Shown piece after piece: positions 15,818 through 31,538 of a stretch of 64,000 nt of DNA. The translations under genes and the position numbers were made by a program. The stretch is from Rhodocyclales bacterium (GTDB lineage Bacteria > Pseudomonadota > Gammaproteobacteria > Burkholderiales > Rhodocyclaceae). Positions within the stretch are counted from its first letter, which is position 1; each line of letters starts with the position of its first letter. The notes under the pieces are model-generated. The model was not told the DNA's origin and did no database searches. It saw only the letters and a program-made list of their open reading frames with translations. Location of the stretch: positions 62,001 through 126,000 of the forward strand of contig JACPUD010000007.1 of NCBI GenBank assembly GCA_016192435.1, read 5' to 3'.

Positions 15818-15824
15818 AAACGAC

Positions 15825-15859
15825 AGTCTGACCGGCAAAGCAATGCGCCCGGTCAGACT
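15825..15859. terminator. hairpin between convergent ctaB and response-regulator genes
   Basis: Perfect 11-bp arms at 15825-15835 and 15849-15859 flank a 13-base loop and overlap the stop codon of the response regulator. There is no clear T-run. A bidirectional transcription barrier is plausible, as it sits exactly between two convergent genes. Confidence 0.5.
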
Positions 15860-16466
15860 ATGCCATATGATTCTGCATCGCCATTTTCACCAGATCGGAA
15901 ATCGAACGCGCATGCATTTTGTCCATGACCTTTGCGCGATGGACTTCAACGGTTTTCGCGCTCAGCCCGAGCGAGTTGGCGATGGCCTTGTTGGACATAC
16001 CTTCCACCACCAAGTCCAGCACCTCGCGTTCGCGCGGCGTCAGGCTGACGAACAGGGCGCGTAGCTGCGCACGCTGCGCATCTTTTCCCCGCTGATCGGC
16101 GTCGCGGGCGATGGCTTTCTGAATACGGTCGAGCAGATCCTGGTCGTTAAACGGCTTTTCGACGAAATCGAAGGCTCCAGCCTGGATGGCCCGCACCGCC
16201 ATTTGAACGTCGCCGTGCCCGGTGATGAAGATGATCGGCACATGGATCCGCTGTGCCGCCAGGCGTTCCTGCAAATCGAGGCCGCTCATGCCCGGCATGC
16301 GCACGTCGAGTACCAGGCAGCCCGAATTTGTCGCGTCGTAGCCGTCGAGAAAGGCCTGGGCCGAAGGGAATGTTTCTACCTTGAGACGAACGGATTCGAT
16401 CAGCCAGCGCAAACTGCGCGCGACCGCCTGATCATCGTCAACTATGAAGACTGTCGGCTCGCTCAT
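15858..16466 (-). CDS. FixJ/NarL-type two-component response regulator
   Basis: The 202-residue protein has an N-terminal receiver (VFIVDDDQAV; phosphoacceptor Asp in CLVLDVRMPG at about 56; conserved Lys in VEKPF) and a C-terminal LuxR-type HTH (LTPREREVLDLVVEGMSNKA, then TVEVHRAKVMDKM). Phosphorylated FixJ-type regulators activate promoters by direct DNA binding. The gene overlaps the 3' end of the sensor kinase gene by 29 bases, so the two form one operon. The shared 18-bp motif near this operon, gfa and ctaB is the natural candidate for its binding site. The exact signal is unknown. Confidence 0.9.
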   Translation of the reverse strand: MSEPTVFIVDDDQAVARSLRWLIESVRLKVETFPSAQAFLDGYDATNSGCLVLDVRMPGMSGLDLQERLAAQRIHVPIIFITGHGDVQMAVRAIQAGAFDFVEKPFNDQDLLDRIQKAIARDADQRGKDAQRAQLRALFVSLTPREREVLDLVVEGMSNKAIANSLGLSAKTVEVHRAKVMDKMHARSISDLVKMAMQNHMA

Positions 16467-17766
16467 GTCTGCTTGTTTGCTGCCCGCTAATCTTCAGGGT
16501 AAAGCGCAGGATCGTACCCCCACTCGACCCGGATTCTGCCCGCACCCGGCCACCGTGCGATTCCACGATGGACCGGCTGATGGACAGGCCCATGCCCACA
16601 CCTTCCGGCTTGGTCGTGAAGAACTGGTCAAACACCTGATCGATGACGGATCCGTCGATGCCCGGACCAGAGTCGCCGATCTCGATCTCGACTTCATCGA
16701 TGCCAAACATTCGGGTGCGAATCGTCACCTCGCGTTGCGGCGAGTTGGCCTCCGCCATAGCCTCGACCGCATTGCGCACCAAGTTGCAGATGACCTGCTC
16801 GATCATGATGGAGTCCACCAGCACTTTCGGCAAGTCGTTGCCGAGATGGAGTCGCACAATTGTTCGATGCTGACGGGCCTCAAGCTCGGTGAACTTGACC
16901 ACAGCGCGCACGATCTGATTTACATCGACGGGCTTGAGCTGCAGCTCGCTTTTCCGCACGAAGTCGCGTACATGGCGAAGAATTTCGCCAGCGCGCTCCG
17001 CTTCGTAGCAAACTTCTTCGAGAGGTTCCAGCAGTTCTTCGGACCTCAAGCCACCTGAGCGCAGCCGCCGGATGCAGCCGCGGGCGAAATTTGCGATCGC
17101 CGAAAGCGGCTGATTCAGCTCGTGGGCTATGCCGGTCGCCATCTCGCCCATGGTGGACAGGCGTGCCACACGCGCCAGTTCCGTCTGATGCCGGCGCGCC
17201 TGTTCTTCCGCCTGCTTGTGTTCGGTCATATCGCGTGTAATCCCGAGAAGCGCATAGATTTTGCCTCGGGCATCTCGCAGGGGCGCGGCATGGGTCTCCA
17301 TCCAGGCAATCCGGTTTTTGAGAGTGATCGCACGGAATTCGTAAACTACCGCCTCACCCAAAAATACGCGCCTCATGTTCTCGCGGTAGATATCGACATA
17401 CTCGGGAGCGACGATCGAGTAAATCTTTCTGCCGATAATGTCGGCAGGCTGGTTGGCATCGACGAGTCTGAGGCCTGCCGGATTGATCTCCAGAACGGTT
17501 CCGTCCTCGGCCTGCAATTTGACGCACTCGGGTTCGGACTCGATGATGGTGCGCAGGCGATATTCATTTTCCTTGAGGCGGTCGAGAACGCTCTCGTGGT
17601 TCGATTCCTTATCGAACAATTTCTGCTCCGCCTCGCGCAGACGAGCCATTGCCACGGCCAGACCAATGATGGTGCCCGCCAAAGTACCGCCGAGAACTAC
17701 AAACGCAAGCCACATCAAGTCGCTTCCGGAGATCATTTCGCGCGCATCACTCCATCCATTGTGCAT
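16438..17766 (-). CDS. PAS-domain sensor histidine kinase (FixL-like)
   Basis: This 442-residue protein has one N-terminal membrane helix (about 16-38), a short coiled coil, and a PAS domain (about 65-190, RTIIESEPECVKL...). The HisKA H-box is MATGIAHELNQPLSAI, followed by N-box VRNAVEA, G1 GDSGPGID and G2 GMGLSISRS. The catalytic region resembles the FixL/DctB class that signals to FixJ-like regulators. The absence of a periplasmic loop suggests a cytoplasmic signal such as redox state, oxygen or an aldehyde adduct; I see no clear heme-binding His. It is the first gene of the operon. An 8-bp inverted repeat directly abuts the start. Confidence 0.9.
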   Translation of the reverse strand: MHNGWSDAREMISGSDLMWLAFVVLGGTLAGTIIGLAVAMARLREAEQKLFDKESNHESVLDRLKENEYRLRTIIESEPECVKLQAEDGTVLEINPAGLRLVDANQPADIIGRKIYSIVAPEYVDIYRENMRRVFLGEAVVYEFRAITLKNRIAWMETHAAPLRDARGKIYALLGITRDMTEHKQAEEQARRHQTELARVARLSTMGEMATGIAHELNQPLSAIANFARGCIRRLRSGGLRSEELLEPLEEVCYEAERAGEILRHVRDFVRKSELQLKPVDVNQIVRAVVKFTELEARQHRTIVRLHLGNDLPKVLVDSIMIEQVICNLVRNAVEAMAEANSPQREVTIRTRMFGIDEVEIEIGDSGPGIDGSVIDQVFDQFFTTKPEGVGMGLSISRSIVESHGGRVRAESGSSGGTILRFTLKISGQQTSRHERADSLHS

Positions 17767-17767
17767 T

Positions 17768-17790
17768 GCAACTTTAGCAGGGAAAGTTGC
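17768..17790. repeat. 8-bp inverted repeat in the kinase 5' leader
   Basis: Arms 17768-17775 and 17783-17790 (GCAACTTT/AAAGTTGC) with a 7-base spacer lie immediately upstream of the ATG at 17766. It could sequester the ribosome-binding site (AGGG in the loop region) or be an operator. Confidence 0.5.
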
Positions 17791-17821
17791 AAGGTCAATC
17801 GGTAACAGTCTGCGGGTACAT

Positions 17822-17839
17822 AGGTAATCACCCTAATTG
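17822..17839 (+). promoter_or_regulatory. putative regulator binding site between kinase and DUF938 genes
   Basis: AGGTAATCACCCTAATTG differs from the gfa-upstream copy at only two positions. It is 56 bases before the kinase start and 49 bases before the methyltransferase start, consistent with autoregulation of the two-component operon. Confidence 0.55.
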
Positions 17840-17887
17840 TCAGCATCGATGGTTCGGCTAAATTCCACGGACAAATTGGACCCATGC

Positions 17888-18475
17888 ATGGAAAAACCCG
17901 ACGCACCTTCCTGCGCGCGCAACCGGGAGCCGATCCTGGCGGTGCTGCGCGAACATTTCGCGGATCGTCGCAGTGTGTTCGAAATCGGCAGCGGCACGGG
18001 TCAGCACGCGATTTTCTTTGCCGCCGCACTGCCCTATTTGACCTGGCAGACCTCGGAGCGCTCGGAGAATCTGGCCGGGATTCAGGCATGGCTGGACGAG
18101 GCGGGTCTGCCCAACACACCGGCTCCGCTCCTGCTCGATGTCAACCAGGTCTGGCCGACCGGGCATTTTGATGCAATCTTTGGCGCCAATATCCTGCATA
18201 TCATGCGCTGGGAGGAGGTCGAGCGCATGTTTGCCCACCTGCCCGAAGTCATGGCTGCCGACGCCAAGCTAATTGTTTACGGAGCGTTCAATTACGGCGG
18301 CCGGTTCATCAGCGAAAGCAACGCCGCCTTTGACGCATCGCTAAAGCGAAGATGCTCACACCAAGGCATACGTGATTTCGAGGCGGTAAACGCCCTGGCG
18401 GCTCGTGCTGGACTGAGACTAATCGAAGACCGCCCCATGCTGTCATACAATCGCTGCCTGGTCTGGCGTCGATAG
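17888..18475 (+). CDS. DUF938 SAM-dependent methyltransferase-like protein
   Basis: About 195 residues from ATG 17888 (MEKPDAPSCARNREPIL). A class I methyltransferase fold is indicated by VFEIGSGTGQHAIFFA (SAM-binding motif I) and DAIFGANILHIMRWEEVE (motif IV region). The family (DUF938) has no well-established substrate. An ATG at 17849 would add 13 residues but lies close to the shared regulatory motif, so the later start is preferred. It is divergent from the sensor kinase, sharing the region with the 18-bp motif, which suggests common control with the formaldehyde/reductase genes. Confidence 0.8.
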   Translation: MEKPDAPSCARNREPILAVLREHFADRRSVFEIGSGTGQHAIFFAAALPYLTWQTSERSENLAGIQAWLDEAGLPNTPAPLLLDVNQVWPTGHFDAIFGANILHIMRWEEVERMFAHLPEVMAADAKLIVYGAFNYGGRFISESNAAFDASLKRRCSHQGIRDFEAVNALAARAGLRLIEDRPMLSYNRCLVWRR

Positions 18476-18904
18476 ATCCCTGATTGAGTGCATAGCGACA
18501 GCTCAGATCGATTTGTCGCGCGAAGCTGATGAAGGTCCGGTCCACTCACTTTGCTGCCGCTCAGTTCGACAGTTCTGATTCCCGATTGCTGACATCCGCG
18601 AATGAGTACTCTGGGTCGAATTCCGCCCCGGTGAAAGTGAAAACCTGCCGTTCGGCACGGATTTTCTAGCCAGCGTCAGGTAACCGATACATTGCCGCAT
18701 TCTTGGTCCGGGATACTTCCCGGATGATGGTCACGTCCCGGCCTTCGGCAAACGTGCTCTTTCACGTTCCAGAGACCTGCTCATCATCGTAGGCGATCAT
18801 AATTTCTGCTATTACGTGCCGGGCGACAACCCGTTTCGGGCAGTGAACCCAATCTAAAGGTAGGGTGCTATTTTGCGTCGGTCACCATTGTGTTGGACGA
18901 ATGC
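18476..18904. other. 429-base gene-free stretch
   Basis: No convincing gene, RNA or strong repeat is visible on either strand. It separates the formaldehyde/reductase block from the SOS mutagenesis block and may be a recombination joint. Confidence 0.4.
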
Positions 18905-19093
18905 ATGACCCGAAAATTTCAGTATTCGGTATTTCCGGATGACAGCGTCTTCGCTGCCCGCTGCCTGAATATCGAGATCGCCAGTGACGGGGCGAGCGAA
19001 GCTGCGGCGGTCGCCAACTTGCACGAGGCGCTGGAATTCGATCCTGGATCGTCAGAATTCATCCTGAATAGCGTAACTACGGCAGACACCTGA
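18905..19093 (+). CDS. short HicB-like antitoxin-fold protein, no HicA partner seen
   Basis: This 62-residue ORF ([20 protein letters not shown], then [24 protein letters not shown]) follows the beta-beta-beta-alpha pattern of HicB-type domains. In these, a strand pair ending in ARC.(d/n) is followed by sG.s..eA..nl.eal.f. ATG 18905 is used; GTG 18890 and TTG 18893 lie upstream. Classical HicB proteins neutralise HicA mRNA interferases, but no HicA gene is adjacent. The ORF overlaps the 3' end of umuC on the other strand by 17 bases. It may be a solitary relative or the remains of a pair. Confidence 0.5.
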
Positions 19094-20351
19094 CACGCGG
19101 CACTTCCGCCCAGCGCGTCGTCCATCGGGGCGACATCCGCTTCCGTTTCATCCCCCACGCCCTGGTGATCCCTTCGGCTGCCGAGCGCAGCGTTCCGCGT
19201 CCCCAGATGCCATTGATGCGATCCATTACCGTCATCAGGGCATCGCTGTTCCTGGCGACGTAGAACATGTCCTGCTGGCGAATTTCCGCCGGCAGCAGGT
19301 TCATCAGCATCACCCCCGCCTTCTGATACTCGTAGCCGGCCCGGTAGATGCGCCTGAGGCCCCAGCGGGCGGCTCGCGTCAGGAGCAAGGTATCGTCGCT
19401 GGGTGTCGGCAGCGGAATCGTCACCGCCTGTGCGTACTGGGGAAGGTCCTGGCGAAACGGACTGGTGCGGATGAACACCTGCACCCGGCCGGCGATCGAG
19501 CCCTGCTGGCGCAACTTGGCGGCCGCGATGGCCACATAGCTCGCCACCGCTTCTTCCAGCGAAGCCAGATCGGACACGTACTGGCCGAAGGATCGGGAGG
19601 AGAGGATCTGCTGCTTGGCCGACGTCGCATCCTCCAGATCGACGCAGGAGTCTCCATTGAGTTCCGCAATGATCCGTTCCATCGTCACCGAGAATTCGCG
19701 CCGCAGTACCTTGGGGTCGGCCCGGCGTAATGCCTCGACAGTACCGATCCCCCGTGCCGTTAACTGCTGGGTCAGTTGGGGACCGACACCCCAGATCTCG
19801 CCGACCGCTATTTGGGAAAACAGGCTTGACCGGTCACCCGCCGACATCCGCCCGAAATCGCACACTCCATCCGTCCCGGCCAACCCCTTCTTGGCCACGT
19901 GGTTGGCCAGCTTGGCCAGGGTCTTGGTGGCGCCATAGCCCACGCATACGGGAATGCCGGTCCACTGTCCGACGCGGCGGCGGATTTGCTGTCCGTACTC
20001 GGCGAGATCGTGACGACCGAAGCCGTCCATCCCCAGGAAGCACTCGTCAATGCTGTAGATCTCCTGGTTGGGGGAGAACTGGGCCAGCACCGCCATCATG
20101 CGGCGGCTGATGTCGGCGTACAGGGCGTAGTTGGACGAGAGTGCGACGATGCCGTGCTTCCGGGCGAGATCCCGCATCTGGAACCAGGGCGCCCCCATCC
20201 GGACGCCGAGAGCCTTGGCTTCGTTGCTGCGGGAGACCGCACAGCCGTCGTTGTTCGACAGGACCACGACCGGCCGCTGCTCCAGCGTGGGATCAAATAT
20301 CCGTTCGCAAGACACGTAGAAGTTGTTGCCGTCGACCAGGGCGACGCTCAT
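19077..20351 (-). CDS. umuC: UmuC-type Y-family DNA polymerase (Pol V catalytic subunit)
   Basis: This 424-residue translesion polymerase starts [20 protein letters not shown] (catalytic Asp7 region). It has [12 protein letters not shown] (catalytic Asp-Glu), [19 protein letters not shown], the HhH segment [11 protein letters not shown], and a C-terminal little-finger region with the DUF4113-type tail seen in UmuC ([14 protein letters not shown]...SPRWTTRW). It is translationally coupled to umuD by a 4-base ATGA overlap. Expression is expected to be SOS-induced from the LexA box before umuD. Length is normal. Confidence 0.95.
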
Positions 20352-20755
20352 ACACGGTGGATCGCCCAGCGCACCACTCCCCAGACCGCCAGTTCCTGTT
20401 CGTCCGATACCAGGATGTCCCCCTTGCCCGAGCCATGGGAGCGCAGCAGGACCCCGTCCGGAATCCGGCACACCTGCTTTACCGTGAAGGCACCGTCGAT
20501 CACCGCGATGACGACCTGGCGGTCGGCCGGGGGATGGGCGCGATCCACCACCAGGAGGTCGCCATCGTGAATCCCGAACCCGGTCATCGAGTGACCGGTG
20601 ACGCGCACAAAGAATGTCGCCTCCTCGTGCTCGATCAGGTGCTCGTCGAGGCTGAGGCTTTCTTCCGTGAAATCGGTGGCCGGCGATGGAAATCCTGCCG
20701 GAACGGGTGCCGACAACAGGGGATAGCGGGGCAGGTTTCGGTGTCGGAAAGACAT
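20348..20755 (-). CDS. umuD: UmuD-type SOS mutagenesis protein, self-cleaving serine peptidase
   Basis: The protein has 135 residues from ATG 20755, or 138 from ATG 20764. The LexA-fold S24 peptidase has an Ala-Gly cleavage site in [11 protein letters not shown], catalytic Ser in [20 protein letters not shown] and catalytic Lys in GAFTVKQV. RecA-stimulated cleavage gives UmuD', which joins UmuC to form Pol V. The LexA-like operator covers the start-codon region, so the transcript has at most a very short leader. For that reason I prefer the inner ATG, though no clear ribosome-binding site precedes either. Coupled to umuC by ATGA overlap. Confidence 0.92.
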
Positions 20756-20775
20756 ACTGGACATATGACCAGTAT
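20754..20775. promoter_or_regulatory. LexA (SOS) box overlapping the umuD start
   Basis: Perfect 7-bp arms ATACTGG and CCAGTAT are separated by 8 bases, giving the CTG-N10-CAG core of a LexA operator. It overlaps both candidate umuD start codons, an unusual position; operators normally overlap the promoter. Confidence 0.85.
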
Positions 20776-20795
20776 GCGGCAGCGGCGGCAGCTCG

Positions 20796-21476
20796 TCAAG
20801 CCGAGGGCGAATCCTCTCCTGGGAACAGGCTCGGTGGCGAGGCCGGTTTGACTCGGGATGCCGGCCGAGGGTCGGCAACGGCGCGGAACCGGCCGGGAGC
20901 GAACTGTTGCAGGAAGCCACGGACCTGGTCTTCCCGATCGGAAGTGAGCCACGCCAGCCATGCATCGTCGTCAAGCACGACGACACTTCGTTTCTCGTCG
21001 CCGGGCTTGTGGAAGCGGTGCATCAGGGGATGTTCGTCGGCGTTGATGGTCAGCATCGTGAAGGACCAGGTTGTCTCCTCGTCTTTACCGCCTCTCGATT
21101 CCCACAGGCCGGCCAGGCCAAACGGCTTGCCATCCTCGCGCTCGATACGCCAGCGGACGGCCTTGCCGGATTCGTAGTTCGGCTCGAAGAACGCCTGGAC
21201 CGGGATCACGCAGAATTGGCAATGGCGCCAGGCATTGCGAAAGCTGGACTTCTCGGCCACGGTTTCCGACCTGGCGTTATAGGTCATCTTGGCAAGTTTG
21301 GGGTCAGCCCAATGGGGCAACAGACCGAAGGTGCCGGGCAGTCATGCGTCGGGCTTGATATTGGCGAGGACGGGGCCAATGGATCCCGGATAGCAATCGC
21401 TGAAGTCGAAGACCGGTGGATCGATGTCGAATCGGGCCAGAGCTTCAGATTTGGGCGGGCGGTAGTTGCTGCACAT
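20796..21476 (-). pseudogene. SRAP (YedK/HMCES-type) abasic-site protein gene with in-frame TGA
   Basis: The intact frame starts ATG 21476 with MCSNYRPP, giving the catalytic Cys2 that cross-links to abasic sites in single-stranded DNA. At codon 45 (21342-21344) a TGA interrupts, after which the same frame continues LPGTFGLLPHWAD, TYNARSETV, PVQAFFEPNYE (conserved Glu) and HPLMHRFHKPGDEKR (conserved His) to 20796. Nothing else is shifted or lost, so this is a single nonsense change (TGG to TGA is the simplest) or a sequencing error. A TTG at 21320 could restart the protein but without Cys2. It lies directly before umuDC, consistent with a DNA-damage cluster. Confidence 0.8.
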
Positions 21477-21555
21477 CGAGATATCTTATCCTTCAGGGAT
21501 TGGAATTCCGGGCCAGCCAGGAACAGCACCCACCGCAATCGGAGCAAGGAACACC

Positions 21556-21894
21556 ATGGCGACGAAGAAGATCAACTTCTGCAAACTCGCGGACCTGCGC
21601 ATTCGGCTGGGTCTGACCCAGGCTGAATTTTGGAACCGCTACGGAGTGAAGCAGTCAGCCGCCTCGCGCTATGAACGGGACGATGACCCGGTGCACGTAC
21701 CGCATGGCGTAGCCATGCTGATCTGGCTGCATCAAATAGGCGAATTGACAGAGGAACAGCTTGACCGAGCTGTGGCTGCGACGAAGTCGGTCGTCAGAAC
21801 TCGACCGGACCTGACCGGGGCAATGCTGAAGCCCAGGTCGACGCGATCGGACAAGGGAAAACCGGCAAAGCGTAGAGGGATTCGACGGGATTGA
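21556..21894 (+). CDS. XRE-type helix-turn-helix protein (112 aa)
   Basis: It starts MATKKINFCKLADLRIRLGL after AGGAAC at 21543-21548. The HTH covers residues about 11-45 (LRIRLGLTQAEFWNRYGVKQ, then SAASRYE), a Cro/CI-like fold of the kind that carries a W/F in the turn (TQ.EFW..(Y/V)GV.QS..SRYE). A basic, disordered tail follows (KPRSTRSDKGKPAKRRGIRRD, quoted in part). It is divergent from the SRAP gene. Role as transcriptional regulator inferred; targets unknown. Confidence 0.75.
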   Translation: MATKKINFCKLADLRIRLGLTQAEFWNRYGVKQSAASRYERDDDPVHVPHGVAMLIWLHQIGELTEEQLDRAVAATKSVVRTRPDLTGAMLKPRSTRSDKGKPAKRRGIRRD

Positions 21895-21898
21895 GCGT

Positions 21899-22021
21899 CT
21901 AGGATTCGGCGTGTTCGCGTTCGAAGTGCTTGATTTCGTCCGATACGGCCCTGAATGCGCCGACGAGCGGTGCGAAGTAGAGCCGCAAACTGCGTACAAA
22001 AATCCTCTCAATGTCAATCAT
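21899..22021 (-). CDS. small hypothetical protein (40 aa)
   Basis: ATG 22021 opens MIDIERIFVRSLRLYFAPLV, then GAFRAVSDEIKHFEREHAES. A GGATAGG sequence lies about 10 bases upstream. The composition is amphipathic-helical with a hydrophobic core (LRLYFAPLVGAF). It is convergent with the XRE gene and separated from it by 4 bases. Small proteins with an R.Y.APL.GA core seem familiar from other betaproteobacteria, but I could not check this. No function proposed. Confidence 0.45.
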   Translation of the reverse strand: MIDIERIFVRSLRLYFAPLVGAFRAVSDEIKHFEREHAES

Positions 22022-22289
22022 GGTTGATCATACCTATCCGAGGCTCAATGCTGGTCGCGAGCAGGGTGAGGAAGCATAGCACTCCAAGGTTTCAATGGGT
22101 CCGGGCATCGGACTTGGAAGCGCGATTGAGATAGCTACGAGACTTCTTGATCAGCGTTTGGCGTGCAGTCTGGTCAATTCGACGCGCGCATCAAGACGTA
22201 TAGCCCGCGGGCCAGATGACTGCTATTTTGCTCCGTCGTCGCAGGTCAATCCGCAGCGAGCAATCACCACTTAAGCATTCCTATTGGGT
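22022..22289. other. 268-base gene-free stretch
   Basis: No supported gene or strong secondary structure. It separates the 40-aa ORF from the antitoxin-like ORF, both on the minus strand. Confidence 0.35.
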
Positions 22290-22520
22290 CTACTCTCGGC
22301 CAACCGGATCAAAAGCCATCACCTCGCCACCGTGACGCTTAGGATCAAAGGAAGCCAGCATCGCGTCCGTCAGCGGAGTGCGCAGTTGCCTCCGATGGTC
22401 CAGAACGCTATTCGACTTCGAAACCAAGGCATTTGCTTTCGAGAGGGCGCGGGAAGCCCTGCGCGTGCTGAAGAGCAGCTTGGCAATGGTGGGCAACAGT
22501 TGTTTCTTGGCCTCCTTCAT
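22290..22520 (-). CDS. antitoxin-like small protein (76 aa), partner not found
   Basis: The ORF starts MKEAKKQLLPTIAKLLFSTR and ends FDPKRHGGEVMAFDPVGRE. The C-terminal FDP.(R)HGGEVMA..PVG.E pattern is one I associate with tails of type II antitoxins, where it contacts the toxin, but the family name is uncertain. The 5' flank contains a TTGAC-N11-GTCAA inverted repeat (22521-22541 region) overlapping a TATAAT-like element, as expected for an autoregulated antitoxin promoter. No toxin gene follows within 270 bases, so it is solitary or a remnant. Confidence 0.4.
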   Translation of the reverse strand: MKEAKKQLLPTIAKLLFSTRRASRALSKANALVSKSNSVLDHRRQLRTPLTDAMLASFDPKRHGGEVMAFDPVGRE

Positions 22521-22609
22521 ATTGACAATTATAGTCAGTCAAACTGTGCACGATTTGTACAAGATCAAATGAGCTCAGTTCGTTCAACATTAACGCCCGA
22601 ACGTCTGGC

Positions 22610-23176
22610 TCAGATTGAAAATCGCACTCTTTTCTCGATGTTCCCGCCGACTGCGATCCACCCCAATCGATTGGCCTTGGCGTCATCAAGCGCGTGATGC
22701 CGACGCAGCCCTTTGGCAAAGGCCTCTTCGACAGCCAAATTGAAGACTGGATCTTGTGCCAGGATCAGCGGCCTTCGGTCAAGGTTCGCAGGCCATATCT
22801 TGTTGCTGTAGAAAATTGCCTGAATCATCGGCCAGTCGTACTGCAAACTGTCGGTGGCCATTTGTACCGGCTCGTCGAATCCCGCCAACCAGCTCCCGAG
22901 CCGCTGCGTCAGCTCGATCGGCGCTATTTTTTCGCCATTGTCCAGTAGAGGCAGAACGTTCTCGCGCACCCATGGCGTGACATTCGGCAAGTAGCCCTCG
23001 GGCTCCAGCTCGGCGTAGAAATCCCGCAAGCCATCTTCAGATACCAATCCAATCGAAATCAGGCGCGGGTAGCGCTGGTCGATACCCGTGAATTCGGTAT
23101 CGAAAAACACGCGGAGGGAACCCGGAGTCTCGGAGTAACCTGGGTGCTCCAAATCATCAAAACTTGGGCGGCTCAT
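22610..23176 (-). CDS. DEDDh-type 3'-5' exoribonuclease of the Rv2179c/RNase-AS type
   Basis: The 188-residue protein shows the DEDDh exonuclease motifs: VFFDTEFTGID (Asp-x-Glu), SDSLQYDW-like MATDSLQYDW (second Asp) and RRHHALDDAKANR (His and last Asp). Family members degrade RNA from the 3' end; Rv2179c was characterised as an exoribonuclease. There is no fused domain. The gene stands alone within the accessory region. Exonucleases of this group are found in phages and islands, so transfer with the island is likely. Substrate is not deducible. Confidence 0.82.
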   Translation of the reverse strand: MSRPSFDDLEHPGYSETPGSLRVFFDTEFTGIDQRYPRLISIGLVSEDGLRDFYAELEPEGYLPNVTPWVRENVLPLLDNGEKIAPIELTQRLGSWLAGFDEPVQMATDSLQYDWPMIQAIFYSNKIWPANLDRRPLILAQDPVFNLAVEEAFAKGLRRHHALDDAKANRLGWIAVGGNIEKRVRFSI

Positions 23177-23485
23177 CGACCAATTATCTCTAGAACGCTG
23201 TGGTCCGACAATCCCCGGTCAGGTCACTACCGGGCGCCCAACACGCTGATCTTCTTCCTGAAGACACTGTTATGCGTAGGTTGAATTCGCGTTGATCGCC
23301 GCCAATCAACCGTTGGCGTGCGTTTCGTCCCACAACTTCACATAATCGACGACTGTGCATAATCGGCCAAAGCGGGCAATTATTGAAGTGGCCTATTAAG
23401 TCCCCCTTCGGTCGAGATCGGTCGTTGGGAGCGGATAGAGAGGCAACGCGTACGACATGGCGTCAGCAACGACAAAGCAGGCTCC
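23177..23485. other. 309-base gene-free stretch with CATAATCG repeats
   Basis: Contains two CATAATCG units 17 bases apart (23341-23348 and 23358-23365). The second belongs to the 19-base sequence 23356-23374 that is nearly repeated at 4474-4492. No gene is supported. Confidence 0.5.
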
Positions 23486-24301
23486 CTAGCTCTCTTTCTG
23501 GTCGTCCCATCTAGTCCACAGATCAATAAAGTGAAGTTTTAACCCTGGGAGCTCCACAGTGACTGAAATTGGTTCGGTATTGGATAGGACCATGCATTCT
23601 TCTTCGCGCAGAACCTCATGCATGCGTGAGATCACCTGCGAAACCGGCCCCACCTGACCGCGCACTCGCCTGAACTGCGCCCACGTTGCCAGTGACAAGT
23701 ATGGATTCGTGACGGGGAAACCGTATCCATTCGTTCGAGCGACATGTCGCGAAACGACGAACAGATAAACGGCCGTGACGCGTTGCGGTCCGCTCAGTTT
23801 TAGTCGCAATGCCTGCGCGACCTCAACCGGAGATGTGACGGCAATCCACTCGACCACTCTCTCAGCCCACGTTTCAACCTCCTCGGACAGATTTCGAGCC
23901 TTGCTCCGAAGCTCCCGGATAGAGTTTGTCGCGTAATCCTGCCATTTGAGCTGTATAAGAGCCAGCTCACCATTGGTTCGGTCAAAGATGGCAGCGTCAA
24001 CGTCAGTGAGTCGCTTCCCGTTCTTCCGAAGGATGATGCCGGTGTCCACGCATAGGTATCTCCTCCCGCCGAACACGCTATAAATCTCCTCACGGAACCA
24101 TGCCTCCCGCAAGGATGAAGCGATATTCCTAGAAGCAGAATTGCGCCACTGGGCAATCGTATGAAATCCGACAAGTGGATTCCTTGACAGGGATGAAACC
24201 GGCCTCAGAACAAATCCATTTCCTAAATCAATCAGCATTGGCAGCAGCGGCGTAGACAGCTTTCCAATGGACTCAGCATCCTCAGCCGTGATTGTTCTCA
24301 A
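23486..24301 (-). pseudogene. 5'-truncated gene with PD-(D/E)XK-like nuclease segment
   Basis: Up to 271 residues are open from a TTG at 24301; the first ATG is about 20 codons in, and an in-frame stop lies at 24350-24352. The segment REEIYSVFGGRRYLCVDTGI, then TDVDAAIFDRTNGELALIQL followed by KWQD, fits a restriction-endonuclease fold with Asp...Gln-x-Lys in place of (D/E)xK. A helical region and a C-terminal beta-rich part follow. The lack of a proper start and the abrupt junction with a fragment of another nuclease gene suggest the 5' part was lost. It may still be expressed. The family is not recognised by name. Confidence 0.55.
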
Positions 24302-24554
24302 GCATGCGCTCGGATTGGCGACGAATGAGAAGGGGCGCTTTTCTGTTTGCTACCTTTACTACGACTGGCCGTGTCCTGAATCCGAGATCCACCATCTTGA
24401 GGTGGGTCGGTTTGGGAGCCGCATCGGAAGCGAGCTGAGGTTTCGCGCCATGACCTACCAGGATCTTTTCCGTCGACTGATGAGTAGCTGCAGTTCCGCC
24501 GACAAGAAATACCTTGAGTATCTTCGCGACAGATATTTCGGGGATGCTGCATGA
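24267..24554 (+). pseudogene. 3' fragment of a PGN_0703-type putative restriction endonuclease
   Basis: The 95 codons read VLKHALGLATNEKGRFSVCY, LYYDWPCPESEIHHLEVGRF, MTYQDLFRRLMSS, then YLEYLRDRYF. The pattern (LYLYYD...E...H..E...F..RI..(E/D).(R)F..(M)TYQ(D/E)LF..L....Y..YL..RYF) is the C-terminal end of PGN_0703-family putative restriction endonucleases, as I recall them. The N-terminal catalytic part is missing and its place is taken by the oppositely oriented nuclease-like gene, with which it overlaps by 35 bases. I read this as a deletion scar. Confidence 0.55.
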
Positions 24555-24853
24555 CTGGCTATCGAGTTGCGGCTACCAAGTGACCGCATTGAGAACCAGG
24601 CGATCATCTAAGAAATGCAATGATGAATTTATGACCGGCAATTCCAGTGGCAGCCCGCCGTCAGGATCATTCCTGAAAGAAACTTGAGGAGAAAATCATA
24701 ATTGTCGCCGTCCTACCTGCGGGTGCAATGGTCGCCGGACAGTCTTGTCGCACATTCTCGGTCGAATTTGCGAACTCCAATGCTTTTAAAGTTTCATCTT
24801 TCAGAGCTGCATGGTTGCGTTGACAACGTGCAAGGGTGATTTTTTGCAGGACA
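24555..24853. other. 299-base gene-free stretch
   Basis: Short open frames here have no coding character. It is downstream of the two-gene recombinase operon and might contain its terminator, but no clear hairpin with a T-run was seen. Confidence 0.35.
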
Positions 24854-25870
24854 TTATTCACTCTGACTCTCTTCCAAGAACTCAAGCCGATCACGCGCCC
24901 CTGCAACAATCTCAGGGCGATTGTGTACAACGAGAGGGACCAACTTGCGACGTTTTGTCCCGGCCCTTTCGGCTAGGCAAACATCGACGTCAACCAGGGA
25001 GTGCGATGCTAGGGCATACCCTAGTAGCTGCATGGCCACACCATCCTTATCACCGCTAAGAAGAAACTCGGAGGAGGAGTCGTCTGTAAGTCGCTGCCAC
25101 TCAGGATCATCATCCTTTCCCGCCAAGAGAAAACTTCCATCCCGCCCCCCTGGCGTCAGTTGGCAGCGCCGCAGTTTGAAGGTATTGATCGAGTGAAGTT
25201 CGGCAGGAACTTTACGACCACCACCTAGTTCCCGCTCCCCCAATGATGAGTAGGTGATTGTTTGGGCCGCCCCTCCAGCGCGAGCATAAGTTCTTCTTGA
25301 AACGAGCTCGTCTGGGCTTTTAGCAAATGCCGTTAACGCCTCCTCGAGAGTAATGCCGCGCTCCTCCGCCGTTCTTACCATGCTGTTTCCCGCGTCGACT
25401 GCGGCCATCGAAATCTTGGCGGTTGCTGTGGCAATTTGTCCGGCCTCTAAAAGTGCAGTAGCTTCAATTGAGGGAGCAGGATTTGCGATTTGTCGGGACT
25501 TGTCAGTGGAACCATTAGAATCGGTTTCCGAGCGGCTCTGTCCGGTACTGGCGACTCCTTCAGGAGAGAAGGCTGATGCAGTTTCGCTCTCGATGTTGGT
25601 TATCAGCGATCCTTGTGCGGTTCCTGCGACGACAAGCTTCAAGATCGTGTTCAACGAGAAATCGATGACAAGCTCGCAGTGGCTGCCATCCGGCTGTACT
25701 TTTCTGAGGTCCGACGCAGCCTGCCGCAATCGGTGTATCCCGGTTGAAAATTTCACGGGATGGCCGGGCCAGGCAATTGCAGTGGATCCAACGACACCGT
25801 ACCGATTGGCCGCAAGACATTCCAAATCGAGATGTCTTTTCTTGATGTTGCTTTTTGGTTGTTTCCTCAT
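24854..25870 (-). CDS. unrecognised 338-aa protein, partner of the giant recombinase
   Basis: It starts MRKQPKSNIKKRHLDLECLA and overlaps the stop region of the giant recombinase gene by 4 bases, so the two are translationally coupled. A basic N-terminus is followed by a compact segment (to about 85), a low-complexity Ser/Thr/Glu linker (about 95-130), then an Ala-rich helical region (SIEATALLEAGQIATATAKIS) and a C-terminal mixed domain with TFKLRRCQLTPGGRDGSFLL. No domain I know is visible. The architecture (globular, linker, helical, globular) fits an accessory DNA-binding or co-recombinase protein. Compare the small third proteins of recombinase-trio systems. Confidence 0.7.
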   Translation of the reverse strand: MRKQPKSNIKKRHLDLECLAANRYGVVGSTAIAWPGHPVKFSTGIHRLRQAASDLRKVQPDGSHCELVIDFSLNTILKLVVAGTAQGSLITNIESETASAFSPEGVASTGQSRSETDSNGSTDKSRQIANPAPSIEATALLEAGQIATATAKISMAAVDAGNSMVRTAEERGITLEEALTAFAKSPDELVSRRTYARAGGAAQTITYSSLGERELGGGRKVPAELHSINTFKLRRCQLTPGGRDGSFLLAGKDDDPEWQRLTDDSSSEFLLSGDKDGVAMQLLGYALASHSLVDVDVCLAERAGTKRRKLVPLVVHNRPEIVAGARDRLEFLEESQSE

Positions 25871-28800
25871 CGTGTTACTCCTTGGTTCAAAAGCAGTAGT
25901 GAAAGAACGCAGACACCCACGGAAAACGAGACCTGGGGTGATGCCCGTGGACTACTTCGATATGTCCTATTTCTGGCAGGAATAAATCGGAGAATTGCTC
26001 GACTGCCGCGTGGAAAATGGCGGTCCGGGATGCCGCGGCATTTAGTGATGCCTGATGCGTTCAATCGATCGATCAAGTAGCTATCAACCGCGGAACTGAT
26101 GCCATGTTTCAGCACAATCTCGGTGTCGATGCCATTGGCCTTCCAAACACCAATCCAAGGTTCCATTTCCAAGATATCCTCCGGATTCGAAAAGTTCCAC
26201 ACGTCACCAATGGAAGAGAGAGATGCAACGATGCGACTGAGCGCCATATAGGGTGGCGATACCGCATGCATTGCAATCACAAGGCCGGTGGAGGATATCG
26301 AGTCAGCGAAAATTCTCCGACTGACGTCCTTTCTCCCCCTCAAAGGCATGGGACGACGGCGATTGACCAGATTCATTCCGCTTTCTAGCTGACGTGCGAA
26401 TGCCCCAGGTAGTCGAGAAGCCATGAGTGATTTCTGTTCTGATTCGCCGAGAAGTCGCAAGCCAACATAAAATGCCGTACTCGCCAAAGGCACCCCTGCG
26501 CTGCCGTTAGGACGCCAGGGAATGTGGTCAAGCTCTTCAGTAACGAGGCTGGACAAGTCTATGACCTTGGCTCCCGAATCCAGCTCGGATCTGTCTGTAA
26601 AATTCTCAAAGAGATCCGGAATGTAGGATTTCTGGCGGCTGCATCGCTTTCGATATGTTGCGTCAGGTACACCCGTCACTTTCGCGAAAAATGTTGTCGA
26701 TCGTGAGCAGTTCATTGCGTCGTTGATTTTCGTAACCCAGTTACGTCGGGGCACGTCAAAGTCGTGGCAATAATTCTCCATTGAGATGTCAGGAGCGCTT
26801 TGTCCGGCTTGGACGCAGATATGGAATATTCCTTGCCGCAACTCAAGTGTCTTGCCGGCTCGATCTTGAAAATCCGGGTCCAGCAGCGCGTGGATGTCGC
26901 GCGATATGACTGTGTCACGAGTGTCATGTGGTCGAATGACCGGAGAGCCGGTGGCGTGCCAAAGCGCTTCTGTGATCAAGGTGTGAATTCTTCGGGCGGC
27001 ATCATTGTTCCGCGGATCATGGTCATCACCGAACAGCGGAACAAGTTTGTCATTTTGAAAGCGTGCGGCACGCAGCGCGCAAATGGCACGAAGATTGTCA
27101 GTGAGTTCCGGATCTTTAATGAGGAGCACCCGCAAGGCATTGTCACTTTTCAGGTTTGCGCCGGCTCCCCAGGTAATCGCAAGATGCGCATCCGCGACAT
27201 CAAGTGCCATGTCGCCAAGGCGCAGGCATGCTATGGCATCCCACCGATGCGGCTGTTCGAGGATTAGCCTCAACGCAGTGGCGGCGAGATGCCAATCATC
27301 CCCCGGCGTGGCTTGCATTGCTGAGAGGAGGCTTATCGCAGTGCTCACTTCACGGGCAGAGGGCATTTCCGCATACTGCAGGGCGGCGGGGGGTGGACCG
27401 GCTCGACGATGGGTCCGCACATCTAGTCCCATCCATTGCAGAGCGTGGTTAACGGCTGTTCGCGCCGGAGAATCACTGCGGGATCCATCGTCGTCAGTGA
27501 GGCAGGAAACAACGAGAGCCCGCCAATTCACTTGATCAAAGCCGATTTCTGCAATCGCGATAGAAGCTTTGCTGAAAAACTCACGTGCGCCGGCTTCATA
27601 TCGCATCACAGTCGAAACATTCTCCTGCAATGTGCATAAATGCATCAGATAGCCGACTGAAAGTGCGTCGGGGCTGGATCTCTCCAAGTCAGCGTATACA
27701 ATCTTGAGATACCCCAATAGCCACGAGAGCACGGCTTTGTGGGAAGCGCCCCTTTGGACTTTTCGGCCCGCTTTACGAAGCACACGCCGTATGACGTTGA
27801 GGCTACGCAAGCGCCTTTGGCGCGGGCGTGTATCGAACTTGGGAGGCTCAATGACGCCAATAAGGTGACGAGCAGCGGTCTCCGGGCGCGATGTTCGCGC
27901 AAAGCGGAATGCGCGGATCCACCCAAATAGCAGTCCCGGTATTCGAAGTGACAGATAGGCTGCTGTGCAATCCATGATGAAGCGGAGCCCTCGCCCTCGC
28001 GCTTGCGGAACGGCAACCGACAAGAATCGATCTACTTCTTTGTTGATACGATCACAGTCAACCAGCGCACCCGGCGTACGCTTTAACTGATAAAGAAGCC
28101 GGACGGTAATGCTAGACATCCAAACTCGACGAATCCCTAAGCTCGGAGATATGCAATCAACGAAGAATTTGTTCTGATGCCGGTAGACAGCTCCGTGCTG
28201 CAACGCGTGAATAAATCCATCGAGTTCCGCCGGAACAACCACTCCGTCCTCGAGAATCAAACTCAGCGCTACACCAAGCCATCCGTTGGGAGGGGCATGG
28301 CTGCGCCACATCCTGAAGATGTCAGGGAGGAAGGACGCCAAGAGGAGCGTGTTGTCTTTGAATGGGCAGGGCTCGGAAGCGAATTTTTTGCGAAAGGTCC
28401 AATGCGGGCGCGTCTGCAGGAGTTTGGGTATGTAGATGGGCATGTTCGTATTGATCGATCGCGCCGGCAGCGCCCGCGGATTTAATGCAGGTGGTGCTGG
28501 CAGAGATAGCGTCATCAGCCAGTCATTTGTGACAGCAGAACAGGCTGTGAGAGACTCCAGCGGAACCACTGCGCTCCAACTGCCGAACGTTTCCTGGCCA
28601 TGGTTCCCGCGACCCATGCTGCCCATGATGTCTGCGCTGTCGAGACCCACGCTTCGGCACAGCCAGTCGAGAAAATGGCGCCCACCGTTGTTCTTGATTC
28701 CATAGGCGGTATAGACCACGGACAGGTCATCAGAGCCTAAGGCCACGACCTGATTGCCATCGTCGAATCTGAAGAACAATGGCTGGCGGTCCCCATCAAC

Positions 28801-30714
28801 ACGGCGATCGAGAGTAGTCACGACAGCATCAGACAGAGCGCGATCCTCCCCGTGCAGACGGTAGGCAACAAGCTGGAGCCAAGATAAATAAGTCAAAATC
28901 CAGCCGCGCACCAGGTCAGGAACGCAAACAGGTCTACGCTCGTGATAGGGCGCAATGCGCTTGTCTGTGCAGATCAGGCATCCTGCAACAGGGTCGATCC
29001 TAGACCGGGTGATCGTTTCCTCAATCAGTTCTCGTCCGGCAACCAGAAACTTCAGCACGGCATAAACTCGCACTGCAATCTTGTTGTGGGTAGATAGCAG
29101 TTTCTTCTTGTTAGCTCGTTTAGGCAGGCTGCGAATCAACTGGCCGGCTTCGCTCAAAGCGGCGTGGAGGAAACCAGCAACTTGGACTGAATCCGGAAGC
29201 CACAGTGAGCCGATGTCAGGAACGACTTCTGCTGCCAGCTCGCCTGACAGACCAATTTGCTGGTATGCAGTCCTGAGAATTTCGCTCATACGGGAACCAA
29301 GCAGCATTAGGTAGTTGAAATTGGCACTGGTCCCGACGGTGAAGTCAATTCCGGCAGCTGACGCATAACCTTCGTCATTGCATATTGAAAGAACAAATCG
29401 CGCCCACGTGTTGGACAGGTGCGTGAGTGTTGGCCGGTGTGAAGTTAAAGCCAGCGCTCTGAGCATTACGCCGGTACTTTTTGCGAGACCTTCCAGATCC
29501 CGTGAAAACAGCTGGCGAAGAGACTCAGGAGCGCCGACGATGGCGGCACGTCGGCGCAGGTCTTCGCCAACTTCGTGGGGAAGAGGAATGCTTACGTAAC
29601 GATCCTTGGAAGATCGTTTGTAAGGTTCGTCGTCGTTGCCCGCAATTACCTCATCAAGGTTCCAGCAGACAAGCCCTGCCGCCACGTCAATCCAAAGTCC
29701 GGCACCGTCGTTGGCCGAAAGCGGGACCTGACTATACCCAGAAGGAAGCACCCGGGTAAACATGGTCAGCAGCGCCACAATCCCTTCGTCGCTGGCAATG
29801 GTTCGCCAGCGCTGAATGATCGCCGGGCCAATAAGCTTTAGCTCAAAGGGCTGCATGCCTTCGTACAGAGGTACCCCGGAAAAGACTCGGACTCCTGCAT
29901 TGCCAGTATCGGCAAGAAACCCTCGCAAGGGATCTTGCGGGACCTTTTCATGCCCCGATCTACGTTGATCCTCTTCGGAACTGATGGCAGCCTCCTGTTG
30001 AAAGGTCGTAGAGGACACAAAGGAGTGGGGCCTGCCTACCGAAGCAAAAGGATCCGCAAATTTGGATTCAAGTGCCGAAATTACGAAGGTCAGCAGCCGT
30101 GCAGTAGTTGAATCAACGGGATAGTTCTTTCGTATCTGCAATAGTTTCTGTGTCTGAATGTCGTGCAGTGACAGTCCGGCAGGACCCTTGCCAGCAAGCC
30201 AGCGCCTTTGCTCCTCGGAGAGAGCAAACGAGATTTGTTCCCTTCCCGAAAGCAGTCTTAGGCTCACCAAGCCGCGCGCAGCGCGAATCGCGCGCTGCTG
30301 GTCTGGAGGTAGCTTTACATCAAGTGGTCCAAGAAAGCCGCGCAGAGGGTTTTTGGGTTGACTTCGGAGGGAGGCCAGATCGCGGGCTGGATCTCCACAA
30401 AATTTTGTGGAAACGGCGATGCGCAGTTTTTCCAATGCATCGGTCCACTCTGGCACCTCGAAAACTTTGCCTAGGGCAACCAAGTCAGTCTTGATTTCCG
30501 AGAGCAACGCCAAAGTGCCAATCCCTGATTCAGGGATTGCGAACGCTTCAACCAAGCGAGATTGCGTCATCGCCGGGAGGAAATCAAAATATGCTGTCGA
30601 AGCGCTGACAGAGGTTTCCCCGGGTTTGGTGGCCTGATTCAGACGAGCGGATCCCTCGCCCGAAGGCGATTCATGGACGGCGTCGATGAATTGTGTCTGC
30701 ATGGCGATACCCAT
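25867..30714 (-). CDS. giant protein with two tandem tyrosine-recombinase-like domains
   Basis: Numbering from the TTG at 30798 (1,643 codons); ATG 30714 (codon 29) or 30702 (codon 33) are likelier starts. Region about 565-745 resembles the catalytic part of large integrase-like proteins: HNKIAVRVYAVLKFLVAGRE, GCLICTDKRIAPYHERRPVC, RHFLDWL, MGRGNHGQETFGSW. However, HxxR is HFLD, the second-box His is Arg and the Tyr is Trp, so it looks inactive. Region about 1150-1350 keeps the set: Arg1185 (HRWDAIACLRLGDM), Lys1217, HDTR 1291-1294, Gln1333 for the box-III His, Tyr1343 (MENYCHD). It starts about 500 bases from the tRNA-Arg scar, the usual place for an island integrase. Function as integrase is inference. 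Confidence 0.75.
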   Translation of the reverse strand: MGIAMQTQFIDAVHESPSGEGSARLNQATKPGETSVSASTAYFDFLPAMTQSRLVEAFAIPESGIGTLALLSEIKTDLVALGKVFEVPEWTDALEKLRIAVSTKFCGDPARDLASLRSQPKNPLRGFLGPLDVKLPPDQQRAIRAARGLVSLRLLSGREQISFALSEEQRRWLAGKGPAGLSLHDIQTQKLLQIRKNYPVDSTTARLLTFVISALESKFADPFASVGRPHSFVSSTTFQQEAAISSEEDQRRSGHEKVPQDPLRGFLADTGNAGVRVFSGVPLYEGMQPFELKLIGPAIIQRWRTIASDEGIVALLTMFTRVLPSGYSQVPLSANDGAGLWIDVAAGLVCWNLDEVIAGNDDEPYKRSSKDRYVSIPLPHEVGEDLRRRAAIVGAPESLRQLFSRDLEGLAKSTGVMLRALALTSHRPTLTHLSNTWARFVLSICNDEGYASAAGIDFTVGTSANFNYLMLLGSRMSEILRTAYQQIGLSGELAAEVVPDIGSLWLPDSVQVAGFLHAALSEAGQLIRSLPKRANKKKLLSTHNKIAVRVYAVLKFLVAGRELIEETITRSRIDPVAGCLICTDKRIAPYHERRPVCVPDLVRGWILTYLSWLQLVAYRLHGEDRALSDAVVTTLDRRVDGDRQPLFFRFDDGNQVVALGSDDLSVVYTAYGIKNNGGRHFLDWLCRSVGLDSADIMGSMGRGNHGQETFGSWSAVVPLESLTACSAVTNDWLMTLSLPAPPALNPRALPARSINTNMPIYIPKLLQTRPHWTFRKKFASEPCPFKDNTLLLASFLPDIFRMWRSHAPPNGWLGVALSLILEDGVVVPAELDGFIHALQHGAVYRHQNKFFVDCISPSLGIRRVWMSSITVRLLYQLKRTPGALVDCDRINKEVDRFLSVAVPQARGRGLRFIMDCTAAYLSLRIPGLLFGWIRAFRFARTSRPETAARHLIGVIEPPKFDTRPRQRRLRSLNVIRRVLRKAGRKVQRGASHKAVLSWLLGYLKIVYADLERSSPDALSVGYLMHLCTLQENVSTVMRYEAGAREFFSKASIAIAEIGFDQVNWRALVVSCLTDDDGSRSDSPARTAVNHALQWMGLDVRTHRRAGPPPAALQYAEMPSAREVSTAISLLSAMQATPGDDWHLAATALRLILEQPHRWDAIACLRLGDMALDVADAHLAITWGAGANLKSDNALRVLLIKDPELTDNLRAICALRAARFQNDKLVPLFGDDHDPRNNDAARRIHTLITEALWHATGSPVIRPHDTRDTVISRDIHALLDPDFQDRAGKTLELRQGIFHICVQAGQSAPDISMENYCHDFDVPRRNWVTKINDAMNCSRSTTFFAKVTGVPDATYRKRCSRQKSYIPDLFENFTDRSELDSGAKVIDLSSLVTEELDHIPWRPNGSAGVPLASTAFYVGLRLLGESEQKSLMASRLPGAFARQLESGMNLVNRRRPMPLRGRKDVSRRIFADSISSTGLVIAMHAVSPPYMALSRIVASLSSIGDVWNFSNPEDILEMEPWIGVWKANGIDTEIVLKHGISSAVDSYLIDRLNASGITKCRGIPDRHFPRGSRAILRFIPARNRTYRSSPRASPQVSFSVGVCVLSLLLLNQGVTR

Positions 30715-30798
30715 AATGAGGACGACAAAAAACCCGCAACGTCGAAATGACGACGCACGAATGACGAAGGCGTTTTGCTTGGAAATGCCCTTGCGCAA

Positions 30799-31319
30799 AC
30801 GCGCTGGGCTAGTGGCTTGAAAGACTCACAATGACAATAGTCATGCCAAGCGATCCGTCAGGAGTACTTTTTTGAGAGGGAATTTTGGGCGCACTTCGCC
30901 TGTCCGCGTGGAAGCTGGGCGCCCCACAGTGCCAAAACAGACGCCTTTAATGGCGCAGTGAACGCCAAAACTGACGTTCGTTTTATGTGCAGCTCAGTGC
31001 TGCCTCGCGGTAGAACATTTATCCGCGAATCGTGACCAGTTTGCTACTGACAACGCCCGCATCATAAATCAACTTGCGAGAAATTTTCAATACTTATATG
31101 AGAGCAGTAGTCATATTTCCGGTTCTCAGAACCCGAACTGCATTTTATATTCGTTGCATTGTTTGTGACATAGCTGCCTCGAAATCGTGATCTGACGTTG
31201 TTAGCTGTCACAAAGTGGGCAACGGATTTTCTTAGTGCAATCAGGTAGATCAAGTATGGTGCGCGCTTTCATATCTCTGATGGTCTCTCAATAACTGTCA
31301 GAAACTACTATCTGCTGTT
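30799..31319. other. 521-base element end between recombinase gene and tRNA scar
   Basis: AT-richer than its surroundings, with no supported gene. It contains an ATGAC-N4-GTCAT palindrome at about 30831-30845, close upstream of the recombinase gene. Accessory arm-type recombinase sites would be expected here but I could not identify a convincing repeat family. Confidence 0.5.
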
Positions 31320-31366
31320 GCCTCCGAAGCCAGGGGTTGTGGGTTCGATCCCCGCCGAGCGCGCCA
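31320..31366 (+). other. attachment-site scar: 3' part of tRNA-Arg(CCG)
   Basis: From the anticodon loop (CTCCGAA at 31322-31328, anticodon CCG) through the T-arm (GGGTTCGATCCCC) to the acceptor strand and encoded CCA, this is the 3' portion of a tRNA-Arg(CCG). The sequence before it does not form the D-arm or the 5' acceptor strand and cannot pair with the anticodon-stem 3' strand beyond two bases. Integrases that use tRNA 3' ends leave exactly such a duplicate. The intact copy is expected at the other element end, left of this window. Confidence 0.85.
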
Positions 31367-31538
31367 AATTCCCTATTTGAAACTGACCTCCCGAGAGCCG
31401 GTGCTGGCTTTGGCCGGCAAGGCATTGCCTTGTCATTTTGGCCAGGGATCGCATTTCACTCCAACCTGGGTACAGGCCGGCGGCCGTGGCGGACGAGGCG
31501 CATAATCGAGCCATTCGCTTGTCCGGTACCAGTCGGCC

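Follow-up and report, generated by a model that had tools for sequence, protein, structure and literature searches.

Genomic islands with an ordinary integrase at one end and a giant protein of two tyrosine-recombinase-like domains at the other

Genomic islands that encode a tyrosine recombinase deprived of its catalytic residues have been described on at least two occasions. In the GInts (ginABCD), GinC has a recombinase fold from which part of the catalytic motif is missing and is essential for both excision and integration; the recombinase genes are grouped in an operon at a single end of the island, and the targets of insertion mentioned in the accessible part of the paper are protein genes (PMC5385486). 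In the strand-biased circularizing integrative elements (SEs), organised as intA-tfp-intB-srap, Tfp is a recombinase-fold protein devoid of the catalytic motif. Its gene lies between those of two active recombinases, all being separate genes of one operon at the left end of an element that, in the available sections of the report, has terminal inverted repeats and produces no empty site (PMC10214605). GInts need a catalytically impaired recombinase and SEs carry one, and the portions of these two papers at hand do not state how it acts. Here we have analysed a stretch of 64,000 nucleotides from a Rhodocyclales bacterium (contig JACPUD010000007.1 of assembly GCA_016192435.1, positions 62,001 to 126,000; hereafter the window), in which a single giant gene encodes two tyrosine-recombinase-like domains: TR1, which has lost part of its catalytic residues, and TR2, which has apparently kept them. 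This gene lies at one end of a genomic island whose ordinary integrase (Int) is found at the opposite end. Compared by description, GinC and Tfp are the nearest precedents, and what is new with respect to known islands with a dead recombinase is that the dead domain is often fused to a live one and is placed opposite an ordinary integrase.

The likeness to GInts resides in the presence of several recombinases, one of them impaired, in islands of variable cargo. As far as the partial description of GInts allows, the difference is that giant-bearing islands have an Arm-type Int at one end, TR1-TR2 at the other, and tRNA targets in part; indeed, the GInt arrangement of three recombinase genes and ginD contiguous at one end is not found in the window's island. 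With SEs the common trait is a recombinase-fold protein without catalytic motif alongside active recombinases, whereas, on the sections of the SE report that we could compare, the islands described here have empty sites in relatives, often a single protein combining the dead and the active domain, and Int at the far end. The SE layout is also absent from the window, where one fused open reading frame (ORF) is followed by an ORF of 338 amino acids and the ends of the island are tRNA direct repeats. In SGI1, MpsA (recombinase-like) and MpsB (similar to the DNA-binding domain of recombinases) are proposed, in the accessible text, to be a relaxase module acting with an origin of transfer, oriT (PMC6414798). 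This pair resembles our case in associating a recombinase-fold enzyme with a partner that looks like a recombinase DNA-binding domain, and differs from it, to the extent of that text, in being a proposed relaxase module with oriT and in consisting of separate proteins instead of domains that are often fused. SGI1 also carries its own Int, and MpsA and MpsB are not known to be encoded at the attachment (att) site. The Int of the window's island is itself one of the Arm-type (PF12167) tRNA-targeting integrases, the difference being the second, giant recombinase located distally; in the open-licence literature searched, we found no description of an Arm-type tRNA island whose distal end encodes another recombinase of giant size.

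Gamma-mobile-trio (GMT) elements are mobile elements described, in the part of the paper available, as rich in defence cargo (PMC12715929), and share with the islands studied here this richness and the presence of proteins that are recombinase-like by the names of their models. The earlier note on this locus had brought up the GMT trio. Membership in this group was ruled out by reciprocal scans, in which GmtX, GmtY and GmtZ prove to be other families: the models NF040692, NF040693 and NF047926 match a trio in genome G467 and match neither the window protein nor its partner nor any further giant-family member scanned, and the giant-family profiles do not match the G467 trio. This complete GMT (GmtY, GmtZ, GmtX; L106 5518-10172) and the Int/giant two-ended element of G467 are on different contigs.

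The giant gene is an uninterrupted ORF of 1,643 codons (see Table 1 for coordinates). Because a full-length relative with 52% identity exists in the same genus (genome G027), we take it to be a real gene. Its listed TTG start is probably too early: an ATG of the G027 relative lines up with Met33, a likely true start, and Met29 is the other candidate. The protein has zero matches at E 1 among Pfam, NCBIfam and PADLOC models, zero at E 10 among PDB sequences and a single insignificant one among PHROGs, and its family is apparently unnamed. The claim of the earlier note that one polypeptide holds two recombinase-like domains was borne out. TR1 and TR2 can be aligned in 26 members of the family, the window protein included. 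The family is highly divergent: among the nine fused members first aligned besides the window protein, eight are only 16-17% identical to it. Further copies, among them additional ones in G187, G318 and G289 and those of G304, G445, G604, G365 and G432, lie outside the alignment of 26. In 16 of the aligned members TR1 and TR2 are in a single ORF and in the other 10 they are in two adjacent ORFs. It is because of these natural split versions that the idea, also from the earlier note, of an intramolecular version of a heteromeric recombinase pair gains support.

Loss of catalytic residues in TR1 is a property of the family. In the window protein R589, K613 and R707 are retained, the HxxR box reads Asn704-x-x-Arg707 with the His lost, and the second catalytic His aligns with Arg730. 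The earlier description of a domain that keeps the fold and has lost catalytic positions is right in the fold and in a loss of catalytic positions, and one box off in its reading of the residues (HFLD, Gly-Arg, Trp): HFLD begins right after Arg707, and the usual Tyr position is occupied by Gly739, not by Trp741. Across the aligned members the first Arg is present in 25/25, the Lys in 26/26 and the second Arg in 25/25, with the His of HxxR in a single one of 25 (G578) and a Tyr at the aligned position in none of 25, where G, S, D, N or L is found. A nearby Tyr does occur two residues later in 5/25 members and one residue earlier in another (G578), and these six TR1 domains may have a shifted nucleophile. 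TR2 offers the opposite picture. Its set in the window protein is R1185, K1217, H1291 and R1294 (HDTR 1291-1294), Q1333 and Y1343, the Arg, Lys, HDTR and Tyr being just as previously reported. In the family, the first Arg is found in 26/26 members, the Lys in 25/26, the second Arg in 26/26 and the Tyr in 25/25; the first His position holds H in 21, Y in 3 and R in 2 (n = 26), and the second H in 21, Q in 3 and R in 1 (n = 25). When 12 members were scanned, six reached the Pfam cut-off for Phage_integrase at TR2 (G064, G318, G258, G309, G322a and G411), three stayed below it at this place (G128, G381 and G183b) and two, those of the window and G027, gave no match. In the remaining one, G322b, the best Phage_integrase stretch is in TR1, and the whole protein scores 27.2 bits against a cut-off of 27.1 with no single stretch passing. 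On this alignment TR2 is apparently a tyrosine recombinase with its catalytic set kept.

An AlphaFold2 model of TR1 (window residues 515-785, with the window protein and four relatives as input) has a mean predicted local distance difference test (pLDDT) of 62 and a predicted template modelling score of 0.63, with 48 of 271 residues at pLDDT of at least 90 and 103 of 271 below 50. The first five Foldseek ranks are tyrosine recombinases at probabilities of 0.93-1.00 (best E 1.6e-3, none below 0.001). VIA-align gives a best Z of 10.7 over 146 residues, and the 50 rows that it lists bear titles of tyrosine recombinases, of type IB topoisomerases or of the phage repressor SroF. The predicted structure of TR1 is therefore that of a tyrosine-recombinase fold, as had been proposed. 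In profile-profile comparisons, the probability is 96% for TR2 with Int, against 32% for TR1 with Int and 16% for TR1 with TR2, the last two being too low to build on.

The gene lies beside a tRNA attachment scar, as had been noticed before from the sequence of the window. In this scar, 48 bp of a tRNA-Arg(CCG) are repeated exactly; the intact gene is at contig C5 39305-39380, 54 kb further left and beyond the window. Adjoining the intact tRNA, at the opposite end of the island and some 46 kb from the giant, is an ordinary integrase whose domains are Arm-DNA-bind_2 and Phage_integrase; the suggestion that the giant stands in for the island integrase is thus not supported. Repeats of tRNA 3' ends are typical of islands with Arm-type integrases. 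In three of the five relatives fetched the tRNA-Arg site is empty: left markers, tRNA and right markers follow one another with no island between. A photolyase match lies 23 bp past the tRNA in G001 and about 50 bp past it in G004, whereas G017 has two different genes of the right flank before it; of the other two relatives, the contig of G018 stops soon after the tRNA and G007 runs for 10 kb without a right marker. With direct repeats, an integrase and an empty site in relatives, the window's island is a tRNA-integrated genomic island. The gene next to the scar on its right was looked for by DNA search in the other 30 members of the genus; apart from the tRNA portion and two matches of 23 bp it was not found, which shows that the outer right flank varies as well. 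Two further observations concern these sites. A fragment of about 47 bp from the 5' part of tRNA-Arg lies just before the intact tRNA at L007 17198-17245, and likewise in G018 (L118 5117-5163); and just beyond the G027 scar, L004 8004-8300 resembles the tRNA-integrase stretch of the window's island, like the left end of a second island.

Between the giant and the scar there is a non-coding stretch in which Rfam detects no RNA. From about 30871 through the scar, the window and G027 are about 79% identical (524 columns including the tRNA part). A candidate inverted repeat is found about 220-260 bp to each side of the att core, 14 bp long in the window's island and 10 bp in G027. These candidate elements would suit arm-type binding sites. 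The same conserved stretch could be read in a different way, with the giant as an atypical relaxase: TR2 would nick an oriT in it and thereby initiate conjugative mobilisation of the island through a helper element, and TR1 would be the DNA-binding half, much as proposed for MpsA and MpsB. A relaxase of tyrosine-recombinase fold with a non-catalytic partner has already been proposed, according to the accessible text (PMC6414798), and a second enzyme with a different job is plausible in an island that already has Int; the conserved stretch also contains inverted repeats. Against this, the giant adjoins att wherever a scar was found, an inverted repeat that spans the att core suits attP arms, and no oriT or transfer gene was identified in the part of the cargo scanned. 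We consider the relaxase unlikely.

The Ints of islands from six genomes form one subfamily (49-84% identity among seven sequences), far tighter than the giants, and were collected at E 1e-60 in a sample of the window's order and at E 1e-50 in a class-wide sample. The order sample (300 genomes, the window's own included) was searched for giants with a three-member profile that matches in 14 genomes; 13 are counted, the match in G272 being a 299-amino-acid ordinary integrase in a genome that a wider profile misses. Int is present in 16/300, the giant in 13/300 and both in 12 (p ~3e-17, which like the other co-occurrence p-values ignores phylogeny), or in 12 of 14 when G272 is retained (p = 2e-16). 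G304 was left out of the overlap because its partial giant came from a search of chosen genomes only. The class sample (368 genomes besides the own one, at least 3 of them from the window's order) was searched with a ten-member profile. Among the 28 genomes matched, the 12 that match the TR1 region are counted and 16 were removed: 14 with ordinary-integrase-like frames of 301-392 amino acids, and G638 and G513, which match in the second half only. Here Int occurs in 12/368, the giant in 12/368 and both in 9 (p ~2e-13); with all 28 rows retained the overlap of 9 has p = 4e-9. One scan of genome contigs, a plasmid tblastn and two scans of viral contigs gave zero giant relatives, and a further scan of genome contigs gave four giant loci.

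The two genes also keep a largely constant geometry. Of 17 pairs located on one contig, one of which involves a giant remnant (G064), 16 point inward and only that of G219 does not; under a strict nearest-Int rule the count is 14 of 17, since the tandem-looking arrays of G318 and G064 then become exceptions too. In G318 an island of the same layout spans 39 kb and is delimited by an intact tRNA-Pro(CGG) together with a 48-bp repeat (97.9% identity). The most compact cases are G411, where Int and a split TR1/TR2 pair are about 60 bp apart, and G467, where a single ORF of 281 amino acids separates them; outer ends were looked for in both elements and not found. These cases bear on whether the giant is simply cargo, a defence or exclusion gene with a recombinase fold. 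The island does carry defence genes, with matches to the PADLOC models PglX, BrxC-PglY, PglZ, MkoA, MkoB and Orf5/HEC-06, besides UmuC, SRAP, a metal P-type ATPase, a COX1-type oxidase and a two-component pair, in a scan that covered part of the island genes. We take the PglX/PglZ/BrxC and MkoA/MkoB genes to be of BREX and Mokosh type. Yet the giant is found again and again in the same orientation relative to a single Int subfamily, persists with almost nothing between the two, and itself matches none of the PADLOC models. Because of its co-occurrence with Int, the inward layout, its position at att and the near-empty elements of G411 and G467, we place it among the core mobility genes, and regard a cargo role as very unlikely. 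Int at one end and the giant at the other make a marker for delimiting this class of islands, and since the window's island carries what we presume to be BREX- and Mokosh-type genes, this marker may help find new defence systems.

A signature of a tRNA 3' end was found upstream of the giant and on the opposite strand at 10 of the 26 loci, and on the same strand at none of 26, with a limit of 1,300 bp, two of the ten matches being more than 1 kb upstream and the match start being taken as the gene start in L081. Control frames of at least 200 codons, in part not genes, have it in 17 of 504 cases (p = 6e-8). Relatives of the giant are therefore not consistently away from element ends; the earlier note had named such a distribution as grounds for refutation. 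An earlier scan of 15 loci with looser rules had given 5 upstream matches and an intact tRNA downstream in L032. A second att repeat was searched for in L094, L095, L096, L098, L102 and L030 and not found; L097 has a 23-bp direct repeat outside a tRNA.

The giant could also be a non-enzymatic regulator or recombination directionality factor, both of whose domains bind att and block or remodel Int complexes, setting excision versus integration, tandem arrays or superinfection. A tyrosine-recombinase-like fold does serve as a phage repressor in SroF, judging by entry titles, the stretch upstream of the giant is a putative attP arm, and the arrangements of G318 and G064 look tandem. But TR2 has kept its Tyr in every member in which it could be scored, and both Arg in all, although eight of the nine fused members first aligned with the window protein are only 16-17% identical to it; a pure binder would need neither. 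A purely regulatory giant seems to us rather improbable.

Our preferred explanation, which we would rate at about even, assigns the giant to the core mobility proteins of two-recombinase islands, as a partner of Int at att. These islands, a good part of them in tRNA genes, would have a pair of recombination genes placed towards opposite ends, with the Arm-type Int beside the restored tRNA, the giant at the distal att and both pointing inward. Excision and closure of the circle would then bring Int and the giant back to back, flanking attP. We propose that TR1 serves as a non-cleaving protomer, using its conserved Arg/Lys/Arg to bind a core-type or arm site, that TR2 is the cleaving protomer, and that giant and Int together at att set the assembly, the direction or the strand choice of excision and integration. 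One may go further and imagine a distinct class of islands moving by a mixed complex, with Int on one side of attP and covalently linked non-cleaving and cleaving protomers on the other; the linkage would hard-wire half-of-sites reactivity, leaving one side of the synapse always inactive and making the exchange asymmetric (single-strand or directional). This more specific version is possible and decidedly tentative.

Several results weigh against the preferred explanation. In the window protein, TR2 has Gln1333 in place of the second His and lacks the Pfam Phage_integrase match, and its structure model is unusable (mean pLDDT 38). The TR1 model is partial, with low confidence over residues ~722-785, where the positions of the second His and the Tyr are located, and the profile-profile probability between TR1 and Int is weak. 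Co-occurrence is incomplete in both samples: in the order sample G128 has a giant without Int, and Int is present but no convincing giant in G113, G215 and G248; among the class genomes a giant without Int occurs in G604, G365 and G432, and Int without a giant in G588, G624 and G671. Also, the tRNA signature is missing at 16 of the 26 loci, 3 of which have less than 350 bp of flank. The system lends itself to experiment: because the dead and the live domain are often in one chain, split versions exist in nature, and the G411 and G467 elements are nearly empty, the role of the dead recombinase is testable by point mutation. The two-ended layout looks like a little-known part of island movement, present in a few percent of the sampled genomes of one large class.

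Table 1. Features of the window in and around the giant gene (positions of the window; TR, tyrosine-recombinase-like domain; aa, amino acids)
Feature	Position	Strand	Basis or remark
Giant tandem tyrosine-recombinase gene	25867..30798	-	ORF, G027 relative; likely ATG start 30702 (Met33) or 30714 (Met29)
TR1 pseudo-recombinase domain, residues ~528-772	28483..29217	-	Alignment, structure model
TR2 apparently catalytic recombinase domain, residues ~1046-1354	26737..27663	-	Alignment; PF00589 matches in some relatives
338-aa ORF overlapping the giant's stop (ATGA)	24854..25870	-	AAGGAG before start; G027 relative in same place
attR scar, 48 bp = tRNA-Arg(CCG) positions 30-76 plus one base	31320..31367	+	Sequence identity
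Right part of 54-kb island	1..31367	.	Left part, Int and intact tRNA-Arg at contig C5 39305-62000
Non-coding stretch from giant to scar; putative attP arm	30799..31319	.	G027 comparison
14-bp element GAGAGCAGTAGTCA	31100..31113	.	Inverted copy on Int side of att core; 10 bp of it in G027
Island cargo: UmuC-type polymerase, UmuD-like ORF, SRAP	19077..21320	-	UmuD by reading only

The 338-amino-acid ORF that follows the giant has a counterpart of 45% identity at the equivalent place in G027 and positional counterparts in G128 and G247. Near this operon the window also encodes a 271-amino-acid ORF with a weak NucC match (23486-24301) and a 188-amino-acid DEDDh exonuclease-like ORF (22610-23176). 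At other loci, a small ORF is found directly upstream of the split TR1 gene (L095 14542-15018, L102 4383-5069, L036 13100-13768, L040 5859-6359 and L094 12589-13734); several of these show by eye a ParB/Srx-like pattern (PxxV...Y.LV.G.R...), and mutual BLAST gives nothing at E 0.1. ORFs of 78-91 amino acids that look alike by eye stand directly before the island integrase at L096 6174-6413, L098 14517-14753 and L035 5038-5313; they are perhaps excisionase-like, and the L096 copy matches no family. Beside the small two-ended element of L097, positions 15329-16630 contain an in-frame repeated peptide (NSLALRQGLIEA) resembling a CRISPR-type repeat array. G064 has a 5.66-kb duplication at 98% identity (L005 3138-8797 and L043 4233-9888); it includes an RHS-like gene as well as the beginning of the giant, and its second copy is truncated. 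Contig C1 of G219, the genome with the exceptional orientation, has many repeated pairs of 256- and 75-amino-acid frames with identical Phage_integrase scores and at least 81 matches in the genome, a high-copy recombinase element that is possibly frameshifted. Finally, outside the island, the window carries a selenocysteine tRNA gene at 52755-52850, with a counterpart in G027.

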